The translations under genes were made by a program, and so were the position numbers. From positions 12,901,001-12,965,000 of the forward strand of contig NC_134025.1 in assembly GCF_964204645.1 (NCBI RefSeq): DNA of 64,000 nt, in the 5' to 3' direction. A model generated the notes under the pieces. The model had not been told where the DNA came from and did not search any database. It worked only from the letters and a program-made list of their open reading frames with translations. Source of the stretch: Tubulanus polymorphus (taxonomy: Eukaryota > Nemertea > Palaeonemertea > Tubulaniformes > Tubulanidae). Shown here one piece after another: positions 7,964-64,000 of the stretch (positions within the stretch are counted from its first letter, which is position 1; each line of letters begins with the position of its first letter).

Positions 7964-8343
7964 TATTGTGACAGTAACGACACGTAGGCCTAAATTTACC
8001 TATCAGTAATTTAAGAAACGAGGTCCAGCACCTGCACTGGAGATAGGAACGACCACTTCTTAACTGAAAAATAATTCAATTGAGCGCGCGACAACCGGAT
8101 AGGGCCTAGGCCCTATTGGCTATACTGGCTATAGGCCCAACTGGGGAAAACCAGAAAATGAAAATCATATAGGCCTACACATTGAGGAGGTCATCGTAAA
8201 CCAGTGCGTAGTTAAGTTGCCTTTCTCAACATTTTTTGTAAACATTTTGGAACCGTCACGGTCTTATTTTAGAATGACGACGACGCACTGTTGTGTATCA
8301 ATACCGCGTCAATACATATGAGTCATTCTGCAGATTTTCCAGA
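7964..8343. other. 5' flank of the zinc-finger gene, nothing else seen
   Basis: This is the stretch between the start codon at 7963 and the foldback-like element. It should hold the promoter and 5' UTR of the minus-strand gene; I see no TATA box I would defend. It ends in the 13-mer TCATTCTGCAGAT (8323-8335), which also precedes a second inverted-repeat element at 14749. Confidence 0.4.
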
Positions 8344-10840
8344 ACCTGCCCTGAGAGGCCACATGGCTTCTCAGGGCAGGAACCTGCCCTGAGAGGCCAG
8401 TCGTTTGAATCAATAGAAAATGAAAACCCATTCAACAGAGTGAGCTGAAATGGTGGCAAGGTGATCGGGATATTCAGATTCAAACTAAAGTTTTCGATCA
8501 TACAATTGAAGACTACGCTGTATTCTATAGAAATAAATTGAGAAATACAAATGCTTTTAATCATATTAAGCTAAAACAGTTAAAAAGTCAAGACGATAGG
8601 GAAACAAAAGTTACCTAAAATCAAAATATGAATTTTTGTTGAAATATATAAGAAAAAAGAATTAGAATTGGTATTTTTCAGAAACAAATTAAAAAATACT
8701 AATATTTTTCATAGAAATAAAGAAATGAAAAAAAACTTTTCTCTGTGGGAACATTTCTTATCAAAACATCATAAAAAATTTCATCTATAACTTAATGAAG
8801 AAGAAAAATCACAATTATTCTCAGGAATAGAATTTTGCTGCTATGTTAGGTAATTAATGATAACGATGATACAAGTTTTTGTAAAAATTAAATTAAATGA
8901 TTCCAAGCGGCGCTGTTTTTATTTGTAATCTATAATTTATTACGATTAACGTGCTATATGTTTCTTCTAATTTCTTTGCACTTCACTTTCTTGTGTTACA
9001 TTTGCATACGTATTTCTATACATTGTTTGCATCAATAAATATGAATGCACTTGTGTTAAATAACAAGTCCTTATCGCATCGTAATTAAACTGGCTATCGG
9101 CTTGCTCACACATAAATGGGAGGTGACGAAGAGATGAGGAGAGCACGCCGCAATTGCTCATTACGTCAATATAAAACATTCGACACATTTTCTAAACTCA
9201 TTTTGGTAACATGCGTGAGGCCTAGCCTAGATTGCAGCAGTTGAACAGGCCTCTCAGGGCAGGTGATAGGCAGAAGTCAAACTGCAGCAGTTGAACTGGC
9301 CTCTCAGGGCAGGTTGATTTCTGCAGAATGAAACTGGCCTCTCAGGGCAGGTGATATCAGAACTCAAACAGCAGCAGTTAAACTGGCCTCTCAGGGCAGG
9401 TTGATAAGTCAAACTGCAGCATTGGAACAGGCCTCTCAGGGCAGGTGATATCAGAAGTCAAACTGCAGCAGTTGAACTGGCCTCTTAGGGCAGGTTGATA
9501 TCTGCAAAAATGAAAGTGGCCTCTCAGGGCAGGTTGATATCGGAAGTCAAACTGCAGCAGTTGAACTGGCCTCTCAGGGCAGGTGATCTGCAGAACTCAA
9601 ACTGCAGCAGTTAAACTGGCCTCTCAGGGCAGGTGATATCTGCAGAATGAAACTGGCCTCTCAGGGCAGGTTGATTTCTGCAGAATGAATTTAGCCTCGC
9701 AGGGCAGGTTGATTTCTGCAGAATGAAACTGGCCTCTCAGGGCAGGTTGATATCGGAAGTCAAACTGCAGCAGTTGAACTAGACTCTCAGGGCAAGTTGA
9801 TATCTGCAAAATGAAAGTGGCCTCTCAGGGCAGGTTTAATCAGAACTCAAACAGCAGCAGTTGAACTGGCCTCTCAGGGCAGGTGATATCTGCAGAATGA
9901 AACTGGCCTCTCAGGGCAGGTTATATCAGAACTCAAACAGCAGCAGTAAAACTGGCCTCTCAGGGCAGGTTGATTTCTGCAGAATGAAAGTGGCCTCTCA
10001 GGGCAGGTTGATATCTGCAAAAATGAAAGTGGCCTCTCGTTGATTACAGAAGTCAAACTGCAGCAGTTGAACAGGCCTCTCAGGGCAGGTGATATCAGAA
10101 GTCAAACTGCAGCAGTTGAACTGGCCTCTCAGGGCAGGTTGACGACAGTAGACTACGTATATAATTGCACCCACAGGGCTGATCAGATTAGATTCAATTG
10201 CGTATGCCTTATTGCATGTGGCAACTATAATTATGCCATTGTCATTAGATAAAGTATAAAACTGATTAAAGTTGGCCTGCGCTCAGGTAATTAACCTAAC
10301 GAAAAATAATATGACATATGATCAACCAACCCTTACCCCGGAGAAGAAAAATATGATCAGCAGAATTACAATAGAGTTTCTGCGAAAGCAGTAGACAACC
10401 CCGAAAAATTCACTGTTGAATTAGAATATACAGCATATTGAAACGCACTAATATCAGTGGACGACACAAATTGTTTATGTAGGCCTATAGGATATTTGAA
10501 TAATTAAATTAATGCTTTGAAATTTATATAATCACCATAACTTTTCGTCGTCGGTTAACTACATAACTTTTTAAAAATACATTTCTTATTATGAATGAAT
10601 TTTAATTGAAATATTACTTTCGTTTTATTTGTTAAGTGTCGATATATCAATACGTTTAATTTATTTCATTTTAATCCATTTAATTTCATGACTCGATAAT
10701 GTGCATGTCAAACATCGGCGAGATAATTCGCCGTTTCATCAGAATTATAGCAGAGTTTTCCATTTATACTGCTTAATTGCGCCAATGGCCTCTCAGGGCA
10801 GGTTCCTGCCCTGAGAAGCCACATGGCCTCTCAGGGCAGG
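8344..10840. mobile_element. foldback-like element with 55-bp TIRs made of a repeated 16-bp core
   Basis: The left end (8344-8398) and right end (10786-10840) are inverted copies differing only in CACATGG/CATGTGG. Each end is three copies of the core GGCCTCTCAGGGCAGG in alternating orientation (minus, plus, minus from the outside), so each end can fold on itself as well as pair with the other. The interior contains an array of 21 further direct cores (separate entry) flanked by AT-rich filler (8400-9230, 10150-10780) with no significant ORF. It is therefore non-autonomous. The design recalls Foldback/Galileo-type elements, in which TIR subrepeats expand internally, but I do not recognise the family. 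CTGCAGATT lies 8 bp outside the left TIR and CTGCGGATT lies 1 bp outside the right TIR. Confidence 0.75.
9244..10141 (+). repeat. array of 21 GGCCTCTCAGGGCAGG cores with two spacer classes
   Basis: Twenty-one cores in direct orientation (two are degenerate and one is truncated to GGCCTCTCG near 10030) are separated by two spacer types. The short spacer (TTGATTTCTGCAGAATGAAA-like) gives a unit of about 38 bp; the long spacer (TGATATCAGAAGTCAAACTG followed by CAGCAGTTGAACT) gives about 49 bp. The order of the two types is irregular. Spacers are repeated rather than unique and the context is eukaryotic, so this is not a CRISPR array. The core is identical to the building block of the element's TIRs. 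Confidence 0.9.
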
Positions 10841-19117: not shown

Positions 19118-21845
19118 ATGATTTTGATTTTGTCGCCCGCGACAATTCATTATTTTGGTTTTGTCACACGCGACAATTCAATATTTTGGTTTTATCGCCC
19201 GCGACAATTCATTATTTTGGTTTTATCGCTTGAGACAATTCATTATTTTGGTTTTGTCGCCCGCGAAAATTCAATATTTTGGTTTTATCGCCCACGACAA
19301 TTCACTACTTTGGTTTTATCGCCAGCGACAATTCATTATTTTGGTTTTGTCGCCCGCGACAATTCTTCTTTTTGGTTTTGTCGCCCGCGACAATTCATTA
19401 TTTTGGTTTTATATTTTGTTTTTGTCGACAATTTTTTTTTGGTTTTCTCGCCCGCGACAATTCAATATTTAGGTTTTATCGCCTGCGACAATTCAATATT
19501 TTGGTTTTATCGCCTGCGATAATTCATTATTTTGGTTTTGTTGCCCGAGACAATTCATTATTTTGGTTTTATCGCCGGCGACAATTCATTATTACGGTTT
19601 TATCGCCCGCGACAATTCATTATTTTGGTTTTATATTTTGTTTTTGTCGCCTGCGACAATTTTTTTTTGGTTTTGTCGCCCGCGACAATTCAATATTTTG
19701 GTTTTATCGCCTGCAACAATTCAATATTTTGGTTTTGTAGCCCGCGGCAGTTCAATATTTTGGTTTTGTCGCCCGCGACAATTCAATATTTTGGTTTTAT
19801 CGCCCGCGACAATTCGTTACTTTGGTTTTATCTCCAGCGACAATTCGTTATTTTGGTTTTGTCGCCCGCGACAATTCTTCTTTTTGGTTTTGTCGCCCGA
19901 GACAATTCATTATTTTTTCTTAATATTTTGTTTTTGTCGTCCGCGACAATTTTTTTTTGGTTTTGTTGCCCGCGACAATTCAATATTTTGGTTTTGTTGC
20001 CCGCGACAATTCAATATTTTGGTTTTGTCGCCCGCGATAATTCATTATTTTGGTTTTATCGCCCGCGACAATTCAATATTTTGGTTTTGTCGCCCGCGAA
20101 AAATTCAATATTTTGGTTTTATCGCCCACGACAATTCATTACTTTGGTTTTATCGCCAGCGACAATTCATTGTTTTGGTTTTGTCGTCGTGACAATTCAT
20201 TATTTTGGTTTTATATTTTGTTTTTGTCACCCGCGACAATTTTTTTTTGGTTTTCTCGCCCGTGACAATTCAATATTTTGGTTTTATCGCCTGCGACAAT
20301 TCAATATTTTGGTTTAGTCGCACGAGACAATTCATTATTTTGGTTTTATCGCCCGCAACAATTCATTATTTTGGTTTTGTCGCCCGCGACAATTCATTAT
20401 TTTGGTTTTGTCGCACGTGACAATTCAATATTTTGTTTTTGTCGCCCGAGACAATTCATTATTTTGGTTTTATCGCCCACGACAATTCATTACTTTGGTT
20501 TTATCGCCAGCAACAATTCATTATTTTGGTTTTATATTTTGTTTTTGTCGCCCGCGACAATTTTTTTTTGGTTTTGTCGCCCGCGACAATTCAATATTTT
20601 GGTTTTATCGCCCACGATAATTCATTATTTTGGTTTTGTCGCCCGAGACAATTCATTATTTTGGTTTTATCGCCCGCGACAATTTTTTTTTTGGTTTTGT
20701 CGCCCGCGACAATTCAATATTTTGGTTTTATCGCCCGCGATTATTCATTATTTTGGTTTTGTCGCCCGCAACAATTCACCATTTTGGTTTTGTCGCCCGC
20801 AACAATTCATTTTTTTGGTTATGTCGCCCGACAATTCTTATTTTGGTTTTTTCGCCCGCGACAATTCATAAGTTCGGTTTTGTCGCCCGCGACAATTCAA
20901 TATTTTGGTTTTGTCGCCCGCGACAATTCAATATTTTGGTTTTATCGCCCACGACAATTCATTACTTTGGTTTTATCTCCAGCGACAATTCATTATTTTG
21001 TATTTGTCGCCCGCGACAATTTTTTTTTGGTTTTGTTGCCCGCGACAATTCATTATTTTGGTTTAATCGCCCGCGACAATTCAATATTTTGGTTTTATCG
21101 CCCGCGATAATTCATTATTTTGGTTTTATCGCCCGCGACAATTCATTATTTTGGTTGTGTCGCCCGAGACAATTCATTATTTTGGTTTTATCACCAGCGA
21201 CAATTCATTATTTTGGTTTTATCGCCCGCGACAATTCATTATTTTGGTTTTGTCGCCCACGAAAATTCACCATTTTGGTTTTGTCCCCTGGACAATTCAC
21301 CATTTTGGTTTTGTCGCCCGCGACAATTCATTATTTTGGTTTTGTCGCCCCGACAATTCTTTTTTTGGTTTTGTCGCCCGCGACAATTCATTAGTTTGGT
21401 TTTATCTCCCGCGACAATTCAATATTTTGGTTTTATTGCCCGCGACAATTCATTACTTTGGTTTTATCTCCAGCGACAATTCATTATTTTGGTTTTGTCG
21501 CCCGCGACAATTCTTCTTTTGGTTTTGTCGCCCGCGACAAATCATTATTTTGGTTTTATCGCCCGCGACAATTCAATATTTTGGTTTTATCGTCCGCGAT
21601 AATTTTGTCCCACGAGACAATTCATTATTTTGGTTTTATCGCCCGCAACAATTCATTATTTTGGTTTTGTCGCCCGCGACAATTCGTTATTTTGGTTTTG
21701 TCGCACGTGACAATTCAATTTTTTTGTTTTTGTCGCCCGAGACAATTCATTATTTTGGTTTTATCGCCCGTGACAATTCATAGTTTGGTTTTATCGCCCC
21801 CGACAATTCATTAGTTTGGTTTTGTCGCCCGCGACAATTCTTTTT
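19118..21845 (+). repeat. 31-bp minisatellite, ~88 units, open in all three plus-strand frames
   Basis: The consensus unit is GGTTTTGTCGCCCGCGAC plus AATTCATTATTTT (31 bp). Variants alternate TCATT/TCAAT and GTCGCC/ATCGCC. The GTCGCCCGCGAC part is self-complementary. A variant containing TATATTTTGTTTTTGTCG recurs near 19405, 19628, 19918, 20208 and 20530, suggesting a higher-order period near 290 bp in the middle of the array. Because 31 is not a multiple of 3 and the unit has no stop, each frame cycles through the same 31 residues, giving overlapping ORFs of up to 261 codons. These are artefacts of the repeat, not genes. Confidence 0.95.
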
Positions 21846-23246
21846 CAGTCCACTTGGCACTTAAGTCCCAGCGGGCTATTGCGTTCACTTTGCGTCCGTC
21901 CGTCCATAGACGGAATCCAGTTATTTCGGGAAGTTTTGAAGACGCTTCAAGGTAATGTCTTGATATTTGGTTTATACATGTATCTACCCTAGACACATCG
22001 TCAGCCCAAAAACTGGCCCTGTCAGATTCAAGATGGTCGACTGGCAGCCATTGTTGTTTGCCATAATCAGCACTTTTTAAACATTTTCGAAGTTTTCGTG
22101 GGAAATTTTGAAGATGCTTTGATTAATTACCTTGATCTTTTGTTTATATTTGAATCTACCAAAGGCCCATCAGCATAAGAAAATTGGGTCGATCTGACTC
22201 AAGATGGCCGTCCTATGACCTTTTTAGTGCCCAAAAATGTCAATTTTGGCCAGAATTCTAGGTCCTGTAGCTTCCTACTGGTTTGCCATTTCTCATTGCA
22301 ATTGCTGATGGGTACTCTTTAGAGAGGGATGTTTTATACCTGGGACAGGTATTTTGATCAGCCAATTATAACGCAATTGGCGGCCATCTTGTGTCATCAG
22401 TACTCATTCGTAGGTGGGAAAAAGTTTTTCCACATTAAATTGATACCTAAGCATATTGTGTTACTATATTCAATTGGAAAGTTGTAGCCCATAACGTGTT
22501 CTATGATTTTGGTGAGTTTCAAGGTCATTGGTTTTTGTATGTGGCCATCAGGGGGCGTTGAATAATACAATAACTTAGTATCGCTATATTATATTTGTAC
22601 CAAGGCATATTTTGTTGCCATGATCAATTGCAAAGTTGTAGTTCATGACATCGTCTATGATTGTGGTGAGTTTTTAAGGACATTAGTTATTCCATATAGT
22701 CACCAGGGGGCGTTGAATATTAGAAAAGCTTAGTTTTTCCTTATTAGACTGGTACCTAAGCATAGTTTGTTACCATGATCCATTGCAAAGTTGTAGATCA
22801 TGACATCGTCTATGATTGTGGTGAGTTTTTAAGGACATTAGTTATTACATATAGTCACCAGGGGCGTTGAATAGTAGAATGGCTTAGTATTTCCTTATTA
22901 GATTGGTACCTAGGCATATTTTGTTACTATGATCAATTGCAAAGTTGTATTTCATGACATGTACTACAATTGTGGTGAGTTTTAAGGTCATTGGGTTTTG
23001 CATATGGTCACCAGGGGCGTTGAATAGTAGAATAACTTAGTATTTCCATATTAAATTGGTAACGAGGCATATTTTGTTATCACAATCAATTACAAAATCA
23101 TAGCTGCTCACATGTTCTATGATTGTGGTGGGTTTCAAGGTCATTGGTTTTTGTATATGGTCACTAGAGGGCGTTATGTATTGAAATTGTTAGATTGTTG
23201 AGCATTTGAAACCACTTCCCAAGTGAGCATGGTGTCCCTGGACCCC
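21846..23246 (+). mobile_element. TIR element copy B, inserted in the minisatellite
   Basis: Reverse complement of 1101-2357, with five rather than four internal ~152-bp units (CACCAGGGGGCGTTGAAT phrases near 22545, 22702, 22853, 23005; a degenerate fifth near 23160). Left end: TCCACTTGGCACTTAAGTCCC; right end: CACTTCCCAAGTGAGCATGG followed by TGTCCCTGGACCCC. Minisatellite units stop exactly at its left edge and resume at 23247, so the element landed in a pre-existing array. Confidence 0.85.
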
Positions 23247-54866: not shown

Positions 54867-55269
54867 TTACGTTGATTTGTACAAAGTTCGGATGTATTTA
54901 TATATATTTCCGGCTCTGCTACGGCTAACACAACCTCTTGATTGAAGAAGTTCAACAGGACTGAAATAAACAGTGATCATAAATTCAATGACATAATTCA
55001 ATACATAGAATTTTCACAATTTTTACTGCAGGTTCTATAATTCAATTAATCATGTGCTTTTCGCAAAAGCAATTGCTCATCATTTATGTTCTTATCTTAA
55101 ACTGGTTACATAATCATCGCATCTTCGAGAGCGCGACAGTTAAATTCAAGGATGAATCAGTGTGTCTATTTCGTAAAATGGAATAGCATAGTTGAAATAA
55201 TTACCCCTTGATGAAATCCTGCAGTGATCGAAAATTTTGACAGAAGTTTAAGGCTGTCACGTAGCTGAC
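54867..55269 (-). CDS. FANCM: FANCM tandem helix-hairpin-helix exons and C-terminus
   Basis: Exons 55269-55205 (VSYVTALNFCQNFRSLQDFI) and 54960-54867 (PVELLQSRGCVSRSRAGNIY, KYIRTLYKST, stop) align with human SYITALNMCHQF and KAEEIYRYI. In human FANCM this HhH2 module pairs with FAAP24 and binds DNA. The protein ends about 16 residues after the equivalent of IYRYI. Confidence 0.85.
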
Positions 55270-58200
55270 CTGCGGTATGGAAAGATAAAATCGGAAAACC
55301 TGAAACCAAGAAAAACCGGGTCGTATAGAAAAACCATTGGCGATCAATCCAAATTTAGAAAACATTGGCAAAAACCATAGGAAAGGGTACAGTACTTGGA
55401 TGGAAATACCGGGTGATCTTTAGAAAAAGGACAAGAGATGCTAATATATAGAATCCCACACTAATGATGAACTAGAAAGTTTGAAATGTTTCCTATGAGC
55501 TAATAATTTACTCAACATTTTAATTTTATCCCAATAGTCATCTTCAGGAATACTTCACGTATTCGTGAACGATCCCCTAAGATGGCTATCAGGATATAAT
55601 CGAAACATTTAATCGAATAAAACTATTAGCTCATAGGAAACACTTTGGACTTTATTTTTCATCATTAATGTGGGATTTTATATATCAATTTCACGACACA
55701 GATATAGCATTTCATCAATGGTTAAGATAAGAGGCTAACTGTGTCACCGAAATAGTGTCTAGTACACTGGGACAATCCTAAATATTTGAGAATCATTGAG
55801 AGTATCGAAACATTTGATCTGGACAATATGATTATCCATGCATAGTGATAAAATGTTTCCAGACATATGGTGAGGTATATTTTTTTATTCATTTTCAAAT
55901 GAAAATTCCTTGGGTCCAGACAGCTTTTGTAGCGATAGCTGATATGAGTTGAGGTGGGTACAGACTGCTTTAGATTAGTAGAATCTTAATTCAAAGCTGT
56001 GATTTCCTTCTGGCGTAAATTTACCTGTTCTCTACCTTCAGTTAATGATGTCGGTACAGAAATTGCCATTTCTTTTCGCTGTTCTATATGACAAAGATCA
56101 GCTAATAATTCAGCTGTCATTACTGAAATATCAAACAGATCACAAGATCACAAATCAATTGCACAATTATGCATATCTTTCATGAAATGCGAACATACCT
56201 TGAGAATCACTGAATAAGACCTTTATATGAGTCAGGGAAAGAGAAGCCAGCGTTGATTCCACATATTTCGACTTGATGCTATAAGACATTTTCAACAATT
56301 TGATTTTACATTCAATTTAGTACGCGATCACAGTTCAAATAATCTTGATAAGCTTAAATAATAAGTTTGAAGAAAAATACATACAACTTCCAATTTCAAT
56401 AACCTAAAACCTAGTTTGTAATTACCTCAAATCTATGGCTGTGCAGCAATTTTCAGTAAGTATTGTGAACGTAGCCAAAATAAGAGGTCAATAGAGAAAA
56501 TTTCATAATCTTAATTGCCATAAGTCAGGGGGGACAATAGGGGATATGAATCCATGTTTTCACGCAAGAAAATTTCAGATATTCACAATTCACAAGTTTA
56601 AATAATGAAAATGGTTAGTTTTTATGAAAAAACGATGCGTTAAAGTTGTAACAACCCAACTATGGCACTCAAAACCATTACAAACAGGCAAATGAATGTC
56701 TATTACATAGCCTCACTTGCCATATGTCAATAAACCATTCAATTCTGACGAAATTAGATCCGAATCCCCATCCCAAGTACCAATCAGATTCGAATTTTCA
56801 TGGGAAATGTTTCATTGATTTCACAAAATATGATATATGTCAAATTAACGGTTCACAAAAAATTGAGTTACTAAGTGGTTTTGGTCTTAATGACAAGCTT
56901 AAATGTACTTATAAAGGATAATGTGAGAAAATGCTACTTACAGAGGTTTTTCAGGTATTTTTTCATCACCGGGTTTGACACGATCTTTCTCCAGTACCAA
57001 ACACGGTCGGTCGTAAAGTTCACACATATGTCGCAATCGGTCGAGCAGTTTACCTTTATTAGCACCATTCATAAAATCTATGTGGATGAAAATAACCTTA
57101 ATTATTGAAATGCAAAAATTGTTACTCAAGTGATATAAAACTGTCCAAAAAAAACTTGCAAACAAAATATGAATTTCATTCCAAAGGCAAATATTTTTTT
57201 CAAAGCGTCCACTATCAGATTAGTCAAATCACCATTCAGTTCATGTTCGACTACTGTTCAATTCAGGACACTTCCTGAATGAACTGAGATCAAATAAATA
57301 AAGGATCCAAGTTGACTATATCCTTGTTCTATTGTTCATAGCCAAGTGTACAATTTCTGGTTGTACAAAACCCTGAACATCTCTAATGATAAAATACCCA
57401 GTAGGTAAATCTGATTCATCATAGGTTAACCTTCCATCTAAAATACCAAAATATTCAAGCACTAAATGTCTTCTAGCACTAAACCAGAGCCATGTTAAGC
57501 CAGTTTCCAGCTACCTCATTCCTACTGCTCGCCAAAACGCTGAAAAACTGGTCCCGAGTTGGAAATTGAGCTAGGAAATATACTCGGCAGGAAATTTCTG
57601 GCGGGAAACCAAACATGAAAATGCTTACTGCAGCAGTTTTCAGACTGGTTAGATATGTTGGCGAAGAGTACTTTTTACTACTGAAGAGATTTTACTACTG
57701 AAATGAAAAGAAGCGTTGAAGTATTACCGGAAAAGTTTTTGCGTTCAACAGCCATCCGATTGCTGACGATAAAATCACACCCTGTCAACTGACAAACAAC
57801 TGGATTTAAGTTGTGTTCAAGTCTTAAAGCTGATACAAGATCCTGGATAGAAAAAAAAAACAACACCAAAATTAAATCAAGAAGCACAGACAAATGCCAT
57901 TACCAGTATTCTACAACAGTGGAGAGATAATCATTATTTATATTGTTCATTATTCGCAGGTTGGTTCAGGAAGGAAACAAATTTATGTACCTGTGCACCA
58001 TTGATTTCGCGTGAATCCACTAGAATCACTAGCTTATCCTTACGAGACAATTTCTGGAAATAATTTCAATAACAGATCATACATGTGCACGTGTAAATTG
58101 TATGCAATGCTGAAGACCTATTTCCACAGTTGTCGGTTTACGCAAGACACTTGTTAGAAAAAAATTATCAGTTCATTTCAAATTGTTTTCCACTAATAGC

Positions 58201-61200
58201 CAAAATTTGAACCGGAAACTGTGGAAGTGGGCGCTGGTATTCACATACTGGGACATATACATACTGTAGTATAAATAGTGACAAATCAGGGGTTGTTTTC
58301 TAAAAAAAATTTTATATTCAACCTAAATTCAAATGACTTGAGTTAACCCCTAGACCAGTATTGACTTAAACCCGGAAGGTAAAACAATCAATATTGAATT
58401 GAGATAACCCTGGGTTTAAGTTACCAGACCCTAGGTTAAAGGTAAAACTAATCTATACTATAGGACCTAAGGTCCTGAGCTCCTGATGTCCTGATTCATA
58501 ATCGAAATGAAAATAATTTTCATTGATGCAAATTGGTTCATTTTCTACAAGTGTCAAGGGGCACTGGCCACTATTGTCATTATAAAATTTCCTAGCTTCC
58601 CGAGAAAACTGGCAGTGACTAGAACCCAACTAAAATAGTGGCAGTACTGAGACAACAATATACGATTTATAAGACATCAGGTTTTGTGTAGACTGAAATA
58701 TTTTTTCTACAGTTATTGTAAAAGGCATTGGCAAGGAGAGCAGATCCAACTGCTAAGCAATTGACAACGAATGTGTCGTATAATCGAATTTCGAATATGA
58801 CCGTAGAGTCTCAATTTTTACCGAGAGATTCAAAACTATTCTTACCGGTGAAGATGTAAGAGAGTGTAGAACTGGACTAGAAATCTTAGAAAAATTCCCT
58901 GTTTGACGAGAGGACGATCCATTATTGACAACTTGAGAATCTAAACAACTGATCGCCGAAACATTGTTTATACTAGAAGTCTGTTGTTGTTTGTTGCTCA
59001 TTTTCCTGCGAAACTCTTCCTGTTTCTGTTGTTGACGTTTTAACCTTTCCTCGCGCTGTTTATCACCGTTTCTGCTTGGAATGTTGGAAGTAGTCTGACT
59101 ATCACCCAACTGAGTTTGAATACGATTATCTACAACTGGTTTCGCGGATAAATCCTGACTATTATGACGAATATTCGAAATGTTCCTCTGCGAACTTTTA
59201 ACAGCAGCAAATGATACCAATCCATCATTTTCTGTCGTCGGTGGTTCGGACGGCGTCACAAAAGTATTCATTTCAGGAATTTGTATACCCTGAAATTCAC
59301 TATCGCTTAGATCGTCCAAATCGTCTAGTCCTAAATTAAACTGCGGTTCATCATTGATATGATTTACCTCATCAGCTTTTGGATCAAAATCTAACCCTAA
59401 ATCAAATAACGGTCTATCATTTTGAACCACATTCGATAACTGACAATTGTCTTGACTATTTTTTTTCATTTGACAACGTTCGTAGAACGTCGGTGTCCCA
59501 GTTTTTGAAGCAGCGCAATTCCGACTAATTGGCTCGGCCAAAATGTTGCGAGTTTGCGTGCTGTATATATTTCTGATCACTTGATGACTTGATTGTTTTA
59601 AGTCTATTTTCGGTGACTGAACGAGAGATGTGTCACTGTCATCAAGAATTCGCCTATTTTTTGTTTTCAACTTCACCTTGTTTACTGCAGGAGAATTTTT
59701 TGTCGCCTGGGTCGCACATACGCCATTAAGAATATCCTCCTGGTCACTGTCGGATGATCCCTGGATACTTTTGATACGGTGCTTGCCCTGAATAAGACCA
59801 ATTACTTTCTTCTTCTTTGATTTATTCTTTTTCTCCGCTTTTGCAATAGGACTGTCCTCATCACCTAGATGTGGGAAAAGTTACTATGTAAACCATAAGT
59901 CTTTACTCAACACATTAACCTGAGAGCTTGAGAAAGTTCAAGATAATATACTTTAATTGTCGAGTTGTGATTGAAATAAGTATTCATTACCTGTATTGTA
60001 TTGTTATTTTCAAAATTCTAAACATAATGTCGTGGAAATAAACACATTTCACTCAAACTTCCCTTGTAGTATACAGTTGTAAGCAAAGTTTACTGACTTA
60101 AATGGACCACCCTCGCTTGTGTACAAAGGAATAAACGCTTTTTATAGATGCAGAGTAGACTCCTCCAAGAAGTTTGAATTAATTGGAACCAGTAATTTTT
60201 GTTTGCGTAAGGGGATAATTTGAATCAGACAATGAAATTTCCATTGCAATGGTTCTAAGATTTGTGTTCGAGTTTATGAGATATTTTGACTCAACGACAT
60301 TTGAGTTTAGAAGAGTCTACTGCTTATTTCCGAAGGAAAACTCTTACCAGAATTCTCGTAGTCACTTCCAACACAGAAGCTGTCCATTTCATAGTCATCT
60401 AGATCTTCCTCTTGAATTGCCTGAGAATAGACATTCATACTATGGTGTTGGTTGTACTGTAATTTGAATCGTCCAGGCATTCTGTTAGCAGCCGAATCCA
60501 TTATTGATCGCATATACACTGCCTGCATATCCATTGAAGTATCTGCAGTTAAAAGAAATATACTCTGTACTACAGTAGACTCCACCTAAAACCGTACAGT
60601 TGGGGCCTTCATTTCATGTAACTATTTTACCGGATAGTGTGGTATTACCAAATAGAGCGCTACCAGACTAGGTGATATTCATGTATGGAAACAGTTTGAT
60701 ACATATACATAGAAGGAAACTGTTTGATTTCATGTGCAATCTTGCAATGTCAACAATTTTCCCTGACTTTTCCCTGATATTTAGTTTAAAAAAAATAAAA
60801 TTCCCTGATTATTCCCCAACCTTTTCGAAGAGAAGGAAATTCCCTGACTTTTTCCGGATTTCCAGTAAGAAGCCACCCTGTTATTACAGGCGCTATCAGG
60901 ATGCAATTTATGATCACCAGTCATCAGAATACGGTATTATTTTCAAGTTTGAGAGGAATATGATAAAATACCGCGGTATTGATAATCAGCAGGTATGCAA
61001 CAGTTGTTGGTGAATGCAGGAGCAAAATTTCCCTACAAAACTTCGAAAATTGCTGATTTTGGTGAGTTCAAGTTACACATTTACAACACTCGCTTTAGTG
61101 AATCCAGTTTGGTAAATCGTTTATGGACACAGTTTAGTAACCAGTTTGTCAAATCAACTATAGTTGGTGAGCAAGTTAGTTGCAATTTAGTAACCAAAAT

Positions 61201-64000
61201 CCAACATGGCGTCCTCTTCAATCATGGCTTAAGACACCTATTACAGACCATCATCTATCAATGATTTTGTCACCACTACGCACATTTTCTTTTCAAGTCG
61301 CCACCTTAAATTGATTCGACTCATTGAAGAGAAATGATTAGATTTACAATTCCTTTTCGATTTCCGACGTAAAATCGGATTCAGCTATAAACTGAACCAG
61401 ATTAAACTAAACTGAATCAGATTCAATTTCATAGAAAGCCTCTCGATTCACCAATGGAAGGATGAACAGACGCTCTATCGGATAGAGTGAATGCAATATC
61501 CGTCTAGAGCTTTGCCCCTAGCAACCTAAAAATATTCCATGCCCATTAATTGCACTTTTATGAAGTCTTTAGTTATTGTTAATGGGTATTTCTTAATGAA
61601 ATTTACCATTATGTACTTTTGCAATTACAGTACTCATTAACAATACAGCAGTGGGTTTAGATTCCTAATAGAGTGCTTACCTTCTTGAGTCATCCGAGAG
61701 TGGTCGTTGATAAAACTTGCTTCGAGACGGTCCAGGTGGCTTTCGTCTTCATCCGAAGAACAATTATTGTATTCATCTGATAATTCTGCTTCTTCGTCCA
61801 AAAAATGACATTTTTTCTTCTTAGGTTTATTTTTGGTTACCTGGTTTTCTTTCAGTGACCCTTTTAGAAAGAAATACATAAAATGAATTGTGCATTATAC
61901 AATTCTGTTGACAGCAATTTCTTTCCCTCATGTAACCTTTGCTAGTAATTGTTGGAACTTTCACTTCAGAGCACTCAAAATCTTCATCACTTGAGCCCTG
62001 TTCAAATAAAAAAACTGTAACAATGAATAAATGTAAACATATTATGAATAGGTCAAAAAATAAATAAATAGATTTTCTTCATTTCTAAAAATGATCTTTA
62101 TTCTCAAATCAAATTCTTCTTGATGTGATAGAACAGCGGCTCTCCCAGTAACATCATCATCATGAAAACTAGGTCAAGCATCGATTAGTAGAACACAGCT
62201 GATCCAAAAAATCAAACTACAAACCTCTAGTAAGCTCTTTTTCACCCTCGAATGGTCTTTCATACCAGTAAGTGGCCCGAGAGGAGTTTTGAATTCTGTA
62301 GCCATTTGTTCTTCTGCTTAAATTTCAAACAGACACACGTGTACATGAGAAAATAAAGTACCTATAAATTCAATAGCAATAGTCATATACATCAAAGTAA
62401 AATTAACCAAATTGAGAGGCATGGGGTGCATGGCGAGACCAGAGAGGGATGAACTTGAGAATATTTCATGCTGTGGAAATACCTGTAAATTCTGGCGATT
62501 CCACAATAACAGCCTTTTTCTTTTTTTTCATGACAATTTCATTTTCAGATTCCAGAGAACATGGTGACTTCTTAGGTTCCAAAATTGTACGCCGTTGAGG
62601 CAGTTGAAATCCTTGGCTAGCGCCCGAGAAAGCTCCTGCTTGCTGGACAGCCCCATCTAAATCAGCCCATGTTTTTTCCCCTAAGCCATTCAAAAAGTCA
62701 TCATCCTCATCACTGAACAGTTCGCAGCTGGAAACCTGCATTTTTTGTACATCGGTCTGTTTCGAATCGAGAATGTTAGCCTCATCCACAGTTTGAAAAC
62801 CTTCGAGATTTGGCTTTTTAGCGTCTTTCTGTAGAGAACTATCATTTATCGAATGTGCCCGTTTTCGATTCAGCTTCAAGGAAAACAAATTTTTTGATAC
62901 ATCTCCTCCCGAAAAATTCCTGGCCACCGATTTTGGCGTCTTTATAATTGAGGGAGAATATCTCTGATATTCTTTTATTTCCTTCTCTGTTTCAATTGTA
63001 TCTACCGCATCAGCATTTTTCAAATTATCGGCATACAGTGGTGGGGTTCTAATCTGACTAGAGGTTAACATCGACGGTTTCAGATGCAGGTTATCTTGAG
63101 ATGGGGGGATTATGTCATTATCTTCGTCAAAATCATCAAATTCAAATCCTAAATCAAACAGAGGCGGACTCCCACCATTATCCCTGACAGCTTCCAACAC
63201 AACATCACTGGATTTAGAAGCACGAGCAGCATCTTTGTTTGTTTTCTGTGCAGTACCAATAGTTGTAATCTTATCAGCATTGCAAGGTATTTCACCGAGA
63301 CTTTCTAAAGCTTGAGTAAATGTCAACTGACTTGTCGAATGAGATTTTACAAATTTCCCATCTTCTTTCATTATCAATTGTGGCGGCTGCATGGCTGCTA
63401 ACAATAAATCATCATTATCATCGAACAAAGAATCACAGTTTGAACCAAACTTCTTCCTATCAGCAATAAGTGGTGTACTGCAAATCTTGTTCATGTGTGA
63501 AGCAGAATTTTGGGTCACATTGCCCATATGTTTCAATTCTAGATGTACTGGGCTTTGGGCACTTTTTCCATGAGGGGTGTTTCCAGCAAGTACCTTAATT
63601 GGTGTAATGGTAATAGGTGAGCACGTTTTCTTCAAAATGATATTGTTATTATTACGATTCACCTGTTCTGGTTCCAAGTACTGTTTGAACAAGTGATTTT
63701 GTATATTTTCCGGATTCAAATCCATCTTTCCGAGAGCATCCTGAAAATCTTCATCAGAATCATCAAAAAGATCATCAGATACATTATTGACAATTGCAAA
63801 ATCTGGAGAGACAGCAGCGACTTTCCTCAAGGTCTTCTCAGTGATAGGCTTTTCAATTACCTCAAAATCGGGTTTTAGCACATTTTTTCCAGACATAGGA
63901 TGAACATCACTAAATGGATCTATTTTCACTGTGTCTCGAACAACTGAAACCTTTGCTCCAGGCTTATCTCCCTTCTTGACTGGTTTTGGAGGTTGGTACA
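54867..64000 (-). CDS. FANCM: FANCM, C-terminal part (5' end beyond window)
   Basis: Fanconi anaemia group M translocase, which remodels stalled forks and recruits the FA core and BLM-TOP3A-RMI complexes. Minus-strand exons: >64000-62483, 62313-62225, 61997-61937, 61860-61681, 60542-60348, 59864-58846, 58053-57991, 57842-57728, 57077-56942, 56278-56199, 56122-56025, 55269-55205, 54960-54867 (TAA). Phases agree; one short segment (about 11 residues, equivalent of ALQFYLSIPN) between 56025 and 55269 was not found. Collinear with human FANCM: acidic middle region, FLDDEAELS block, (M)(Q/R)A(V/I)YM(R/K)S block, DSFCV block, then ERCC4/XPF nuclease and HhH domains. The helicase exons lie to the right. 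The nuclease signature is unusually complete (see findings). Confidence 0.93.
55441..55686. mobile_element. 246-bp foldback/MITE in a FANCM intron
   Basis: ATCCCACACTAATGATGAA...TTTCCTATGAGCTAATA at the left is inverted at the right (TATTAGCTCATAGGAAA...TTCATCATTAATGTGGGAT). Complementarity continues, with gaps, to a central ACGTATTCGT palindrome. Nearly the whole element is one long imperfect hairpin. It occupies the intron where the expected short FANCM exon was not found. Confidence 0.8.
56025..58053 (-). CDS. FANCM: FANCM ERCC4/XPF-type nuclease exons
   Basis: Exons 58053-57991 (KLVILVDSREINGAQ), 57842-57728 (LTGCDFIVSNRMAVERKNFS), 57077-56942 (D...FMNGANKGKLLDRLRHMC, CLVLEKDR), 56278-56199 (KYVESTLASLSLTHIKVLFS) and 56122-56025 (MTAELLADLCHIEQRKEMAI). 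The Asp after ERKNFS is encoded by G (57728) plus AT (57077-57076). The ERKxxxD signature is therefore intact, whereas human FANCM has ERRxxxE and no DSRE. Confidence 0.92.
58846..59864 (-). CDS. FANCM: FANCM 1-kb linker exon with two further FDLG-like motifs
   Basis: 339 codons, phase 1 in, phase 0 out (TTCACCG|gtaag). Lys-rich start (KKNKSKKKKVIGLIQG), then RPLFDLGLDFDPKADE (about 59415-59368) and EPQFNLGLDDLDDLSD (about 59346-59299), and a charged coiled-coil-like KQREERLKRQQQKQEEFRRK. Corresponds to the variable linker before the nuclease domain. Confidence 0.9.
60348..62313 (-). CDS. FANCM: FANCM exons 62313-62225, 61997-61937, 61860-61681, 60542-60348
   Basis: They encode MATEFKTPLGPLTGMKDH; GSSDEDFECSEVKVPTI; KKKKCHFLDEEAELSDEYNN...SSDEDE; and SMDMQAVYMRSIMDSAANRM...DSFCVGSDYE. 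The last two blocks align with human FANCM around KFLDDEAELSEED and MRAIYMKSL...EDSFCV, which fixes the identity. Introns carry decayed TTCCCTGACTTTTTCC-type repeats (60750-60860). Confidence 0.9.
62483..64000 (-). CDS. FANCM: FANCM large middle exon (runs off the right edge)
   Basis: Open from the window edge to ACA G|gtattt at 62483. The protein is disordered and acidic, with repeated LFDD-type motifs (DLFDDSDEDF, SLFDDNDDLL, ELFSDEDDDFL) and PPLFDLGFEFDDFDED at about 63164-63117, which resembles the human MM2 (RMI-binding) core FDLGF. The GTG at 63929 is not a start; the frame continues upstream (YQPPKPVKKGDKPGAKVSVV). Confidence 0.9.

Follow-up and report, generated by a model that had tools for sequence, protein, structure and literature searches.

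The window, the 64,000-nucleotide stretch of DNA analysed here, carries on its minus strand the linker and ERCC4-(HhH)2 exons of a FANCM orthologue whose nuclease domain retains the whole set of XPF-family catalytic residues. The residues at eight catalytic columns are D R E D E R K D in the window (D13, R15, E16, D44, E54, R55, K56 and D60; 8/8) and G H E D E R R E in human FANCM (4/8). Judging from these residues, it is plausible that the protein may be an active Hef-like translocase-nuclease, and we place the chances for and against activity at about even.

The nuclease motif had been assigned in a preliminary description to three exons, 58053-57991, 57842-57728 and 57077-56942. These coordinates proved exact: the exons lie on the minus strand, are flanked by AG and GT in the window sequence and join in an open frame that translates to LVILVDSREI and GCDFIVSNRMAVERKNFSDFMNG, as had been reported. 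The genomic sequence also bore out the statement that the final catalytic Asp is split (G|AT) by an intron, at 57727-57078. Altogether, seven minus-strand exons from 58053 to 54867 join into a single open frame of 226 amino acids that ends in the stop codon TAA, and the remaining two frames of the same join contain many stops (Table 1). Chance occurrence of the motif was ruled out by this seven-exon open frame together with the E-value of the domain match (about 1e-48). At the other end of the gene, the large central frame (62466..63998) continues beyond the end of the window into L003 (C1:12965001 on), which holds the FANCM helicase and MHF-region exons.

Table 1. Exons and associated features of the FANCM gene within the window, in window positions.
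Feature	Position	Strand	Remarks
ERCC4 exon 1	57991..58053	-	KLSRKDKLVILVDSREINGAQ; DSRE codons 58017-58006
ERCC4 exon 2	57728..57842	-	DLVSALRLEHNLNPVVCQLTGCDFIVSNRMAVERKNFS and the first base of the Asp60 codon
Catalytic codons of exon 2	D44 codon start 57776; ERK 57746-57738	-	
Intron splitting the catalytic Asp60 codon (G|AT)	57078..57727	-	donor GTAATACT, acceptor CCACATAG
ERCC4 exon 3	56942..57077	-	remainder of Asp60, then FMNGANKGKLLDRLRHMCELYDRPCLVLEKDRVKPGDEKIPEKP and two bases
ERCC4 exon 4, end of the nuclease fold	56199..56278	-	Pfam ERCC4 match covers residues 12-140
Exon 5, ERCC4 end and linker	56025..56122	-	
Exon 6, first part of (HhH)2	55205..55299	-	weak HHH_5 match
Last exon, remainder of (HhH)2	54867..54960	-	stop codon TAA
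Linker exon	58846..59864	-	in phase with 58053-57991
Linker exon	60348..60542	-	in phase
Linker exon	61681..61860	-	in phase
Linker exon	61937..61997	-	in phase
Linker exon	62225..62313	-	in phase
Open frame with the large central exon	62466..63998	-	3' end approximate

The gene is a FANCM orthologue, with an SF2 translocase, an MHF-binding region, an ERCC4-(HhH)2 domain and a FAAP24 gene all present. The FANCM identity proposed earlier was upheld by the PDB ranking, by the tree and by the helicase upstream. The best PDB matches of the domain were three chains of human FANCM (4m6w, 4bxo and 9hjo; residues 9-222), which aligned without gaps through the nuclease motif and extended through the (HhH)2 part; the next matches were XPF (2.5e-9 to 6e-9) and Hef (1j22, 1.6e-6). 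The HHH_5 match itself (residues 166-220, E 0.0057) scored 17.5 bits, below the cut-off of 27. A 20-row tree placed the window together with human FANCM in one clade (support 100/99), the end branch of the window measuring 0.73. Two warnings accompanied this tree: long branches meet at the deeper join of FANCM and XPF, which we did not use, and human FANCM and L040 have an unlike letter make-up. Upstream in the gene, an N-terminal exon with GLGKT (Walker A) matched the human FANCM helicase 9el5 (E 4e-44), followed by a DEAH exon and a Helicase_C stretch with QRMGRTGR. After the helicase, exons joined at the protein level matched the MHF-binding family PF16783 with 49.5 bits (cut-off 25).

A search of the genome with the window domain returned eight matches, of which seven were its own exons and the eighth was XPF; we therefore take FANCM to be present as a single copy. 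The same genome contains a FAAP24 gene that lacks the ERK motif, as well as FANCD2 and one short match to FANCF (positions 3-44 of 346, E 8.9e-8). The exon-by-exon genome search found no PF16783 match, and no control responded in it; likewise, the genome search with the ERCC4 family listed XPF and MUS81 and did not list the split ERCC4 domain of the window. Because these searches missed an MHF region and an ERCC4 domain that are there, we do not read their misses as absences. Among viral contigs, we obtained 4 pattern stretches with the window domain and 18 with the window-human alignment (A1), none of which was a relative.

We considered whether the gene might instead be XPF or MUS81 or an archaeal Hef acquired by horizontal transfer, and whether the gene model might be at fault. 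Regarding the former, ERCC4 and Hef models do match the window domain, but human FANCM is its best match by far and its clade partner, a FANCM helicase lies upstream, the gene is rich in introns, and the genome has a separate XPF (C2:1575962) and a separate MUS81 (C1:7375537). We give this reading a nearly negligible probability, and a mistaken XPF or MUS81 assignment and a transfer of archaeal Hef were both ruled out by the PDB ranking, the clade, the helicase and the separate genes. Regarding the latter, the main transcript would lack the last Asp if exon 3 were skipped or were to start at 57053, where an in-frame alternative acceptor lies 24 nt downstream; its use would delete the eight residues Asp60-Lys67 and cause no frameshift. 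However, this stretch aligns gap-free with EMLNSVNK of human FANCM, the first acceptor (57077) is in frame with all exons, and skipping of the 136 nt of 57077-56942 would shift the frame. A gene-model artefact is thus quite improbable, and the gapless match to human FANCM leads us to favour 57077 as the main acceptor. As a separate observation, alternative splicing at the 57077-57053 pair (minus strand) could yield a catalytically dead isoform lacking Asp60.

To compare catalytic residues, eight columns were fixed before counting, namely those of the published motif GDXnERKX3D (PMC3905867) and those of DxRE, the latter having been proposed by a reader who had already seen the window sequence. 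From 45 archaeal loci we left out L013, L027 and L048 (partial), L049-L054 (HhH only) and L036 and L037 (a stop in the translation); the remaining 34 loci, including L032, whose record carries a bacterial label, and two PDB chains made up 36 archaeal rows. The window shares its D R E D E R K D with all 36 of these rows and with the XPFs of human and of this animal. With DxRE left out, the count over the published motif alone (D, E, R, K and D) was 5/5 for the window and 3/5 for human FANCM. The alignment with archaeal Hef and XPF that had been called for therefore superposes the acidic and Lys residues of the window on the XPF catalytic positions, as the preliminary description had it, and the Arg positions align with them. 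Its further statements that human FANCM has GGHE and ERRxxxE in their place and that the Gly of GD is a Cys in the window (Cys43) were also correct, by PDB match and alignment; human FANCM likewise has CD. The motif of the window is accordingly CDX9ERKX3D and not the vertebrate-type CDXnERRX3E. The animal's XPF has GD and ERKxxxD, and its MUS81 has GD and ERKxxDD. Not every family member needs the R of DxRE: both the PDB Mus81 2ziu and the MUS81 of this animal have Cys there.

We next asked whether the retention is specific to the active site. The 36 archaeal rows and two XPFs (38 rows) were thinned at 80% identity to a reference set of 18. At the 34 non-catalytic columns conserved in at least 60% of these rows, the window matched 17 and human FANCM matched 18. 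Comparing catalytic with non-catalytic columns, Fisher's one-sided test gave values of 0.009 (window) and 0.71 (human FANCM), this being a small test on only two FANCMs. At a cut-off of 80%, the window matched 5/12 and human FANCM 7/12 non-catalytic columns (Fisher value for the window, 0.010); at 90%, the counts were 2/6 and 4/6 (0.015); and at 100% a single non-catalytic column remained (0.11). A rough calculation that assumes an intact ancestor gives a probability of about 0.003 that all eight sites would survive at the branch average of 0.73 changes per column. Since both FANCMs drifted alike elsewhere, general conservation does not seem to account for the retention, which in this comparison of two FANCMs appears particular to the active site. 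Whole-domain scores were rejected as a sign of activity, as human FANCM scores similarly or higher: 60 bits for the window and 60.1 for human FANCM with Pfam ERCC4, 85.3 and 87.4 with the Hef model, 66.3 and 86.1 with the archaeal Xpf model, and 54.8 and 53 with the RAD1 model. Save for its active site, the window domain thus appears to be as far from Hef and XPF as that of human FANCM, or further.

Several features of the domain count against catalysis. The residue before the first motif Asp is neither Gly nor Ala but Cys43, as in human FANCM. In the archaeal rows this residue is Gly in 24 and Ala in 12 of 36 (L046 among the latter), so the published GD motif is not strict. The S..(D/N)GR...Q patch that follows the motif, which the animal's XPF and MUS81 both keep, is altered in the window (G64, K67, K69 and R73, with G68 kept). 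At position 64, the window has Gly where the references have Ser (18/18); at position 67, Lys where they have Asp (16) or Asn (2); at position 69, Lys where they have Arg (17) or Gly (1); and at position 73, Arg where they have Gln (17) or Glu (1). The Hef of Pyrococcus furiosus has Gly at the third of these positions, which therefore seems dispensable. The window is worse than human FANCM at the Ser and Gln, both of which human FANCM retains, and their loss would be harder to square with full catalysis. The literature passages at hand assign no role to this Ser or Gln. The net charges of the ERCC4 and HhH parts are +3 and +5 in the window, -1 and +2 in human FANCM and -4 and -5 in the animal's XPF; net charge is no guide to activity, because the animal's XPF lies lower still than human FANCM. 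As the window has neither Gly nor Ala before the motif Asp and has an altered patch, we filed it as FANCM and not as a catalytic XPF-family nuclease, although its action may resemble that of one. The preliminary description had suggested an ancestral, still active Hef-like translocase-nuclease; the FANCM identity, the catalytic columns and, by parsimony, the ancestral state held up, and 'still active' did not fare as well, with the change of Gly to Cys and the loss of the patch counting against full competence.

Among the known systems closest to the window, human FANCM-FAAP24 (4m6w, 4bxo and 9hjo; helicase 9el5) has the same domain order, CD in place of GD and a FAAP24 gene, with 39% identity to the window across the ERCC4-(HhH)2 domain. 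It differs in having GGHE and ERRxxxE where the window has DSRE and ERKxxxD. Archaeal Hef of P. furiosus (1j22 and 1x2i) has the same eight catalytic residues as the window at about 22% identity across the domain, with GD where the window has CD. We take 1j22 and the helicase 1wp9 to be parts of Hef. FAAP24, the long linker and the altered patch further set the animal system apart from Hef. Like the window FANCM, Hef joins a helicase and ERCC4-(HhH)2 on one protein (PMC7776575); it forms homodimers (PMC6320978). XPF-ERCC1 and MUS81-EME1 likewise pair an ERCC4 catalytic subunit carrying the ERK-and-Asp motif with a non-catalytic partner, and the helicase-like domain of XPF lacks the ATP-binding residues (PMC6320978). 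A cautionary case is human SHOC1, an ERCC4-(HhH)2 protein with a near-canonical ERKxxxE and GE in place of GD, which showed no nuclease activity in vitro, although its authors concede that the use of recombinant protein may have produced an artefact (PMC5962103).

The inactivity of vertebrate FANCM has been ascribed in part to the motif. Yang et al. (2013) described the vertebrate motif as CDXnERRX3E and proposed that the changes of Lys to Arg and of Asp to Glu may contribute, and they also blamed a hydrophobic surface by the active site (PMC3905867); the change of Lys to Arg is held partly responsible in PMC5962103 as well. The window has the canonical residue, Lys or Asp, at both of these motif positions that changed in vertebrates. 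FANCM is termed non-catalytic or a pseudonuclease in PMC6320978, PMC7048804 (XPF-ERCC1 cryo-EM) and PMC5962103, and in the passages on FANCM-FAAP24 that name the sequences behind this label, these were human or vertebrate. Our search covered open PMC papers; none of the matches listed there describes an invertebrate FANCM with a retained motif, nor do the passages considered from PMC2730050, PMC11061109, PMC7776575, PMC11377751, PMC4519697 and PMC6409899.

If the domain is active, we envisage that the FANCM motor would remodel stalled forks or other branched DNA, while the C-terminal ERCC4-(HhH)2 domain would pair with the non-catalytic FAAP24, as XPF does with ERCC1. The predicted ERCC4-(HhH)2-FAAP24 pair would then nick one strand near the branch in the presence of Mg2+ or Mn2+, the metal binding, the incision and the substrate all being anticipated from the residues. 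FANCM would thus work in the manner of archaeal Hef, as a translocase and a nuclease in a single protein. Extending this further, FANCM-FAAP24 of this spiralian and, by inheritance, of the protostome-deuterostome ancestor may function as a eukaryotic counterpart of Hef, travelling along stalled forks or crosslinks and then cutting them. Its nuclease would have been lost toward vertebrates, and the choice of acceptor could switch Asp60 in or out; this wider proposal is tentative, and we hold it to be possible rather than probable.

The main competing interpretation is that the domain is a silent pseudonuclease, in which the intact residues would serve a structural metal, duplex DNA binding or docking on the translocase and would make no incision. 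Human FANCM, in which no activity has been detected, retains four of the eight residues (E, D, E and R), and a 2025 study describes its ERCC4 domain as binding duplex DNA and docking on the translocase, with no known cutting; it reports calcium at the active site in 4BXO and a site for 5 bp of duplex in the pseudonuclease domain, and mutation of the docking residues I1827 and V1847 impaired FANCD2 foci (PMC12263834). Both docking residues are identical in the window, as I17 and V37 (by numbering counted from R1866/E1870), and the loss of the S/D/R/Q patch fits the same interpretation. However, a structural role poorly explains D13, R15, K56 and D60, all of which the human FANCM scaffold dispenses with, and the retention is concentrated at catalytic columns. 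We consider silence a serious prospect, with a likelihood somewhat short of even. Another possibility is that animal FANCM descends from an already degenerate ancestor and that the canonical residues were regained in this lineage. Nothing speaks for it directly, and the comparison includes one animal besides human; however, four independent returns would be needed to the exact state that is invariant in 36/36 archaeal rows, and both FANCMs fall in one clade, making such a reversion very improbable.

With one spiralian and human compared, and with archaeal and XPF outgroups, parsimony suggests that FANCM of the protostome-deuterostome ancestor had the intact catalytic set. The dead site of vertebrates looks derived, because the host, which its Hox genes suggest is a spiralian, keeps that set. 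The dead site would then be the state of the vertebrate line and not a property of animal FANCM in general. This raises the questions of whether FANCM cuts DNA in some animals and whether early animals used a fused motor and nuclease at stalled forks, as archaea do. If FANCM does cut, it would change the view of how the division of labour between FANCM, XPF and MUS81 arose.

A COX1 search meant to place the host found nothing in the assembly, and the Hox genes served this purpose instead. The Hox genes of this genome (G000) number ten and lie on one strand in a single cluster of about 316 kb (C6:5318228-5634756). Two of them encode the peptide AIKELN or QIKELN after the homeodomain and one encodes KLNGPNG, peptides that we take to be the Lox2, Lox4 and Lox5 marks of spiralians.

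Additional features were observed in and around the FANCM gene. Upstream of it, L006:7134-7682 (minus strand) contains an open frame that by eye resembles the GIY-YIG end of a retroelement. A 31-bp tandem array occupies 19121-21840 of the window, with 78.9 copies of the unit ATTTTGGTTTTGTCGCCCGCGACAATTCATT across 19121-21604, and gives rise to spurious long open frames. A satellite of 153/154 bp forms two arrays, at 1177-1776 and 22423-23175 of the window, and satellite-like sequence was seen by eye within FANCM introns, at about 8200-8560 and 6640-6880 of L003. Lastly, the FANCM linker (minus strand) contains, by eye, three copies of an FDLG(F/L)(E/D)FDD-like motif, at about 63158, 59408 and 59336; these read LFDLGFEFDD, LFDLGLDFDP and FNLGLDDLDD and might be docking motifs for partners.
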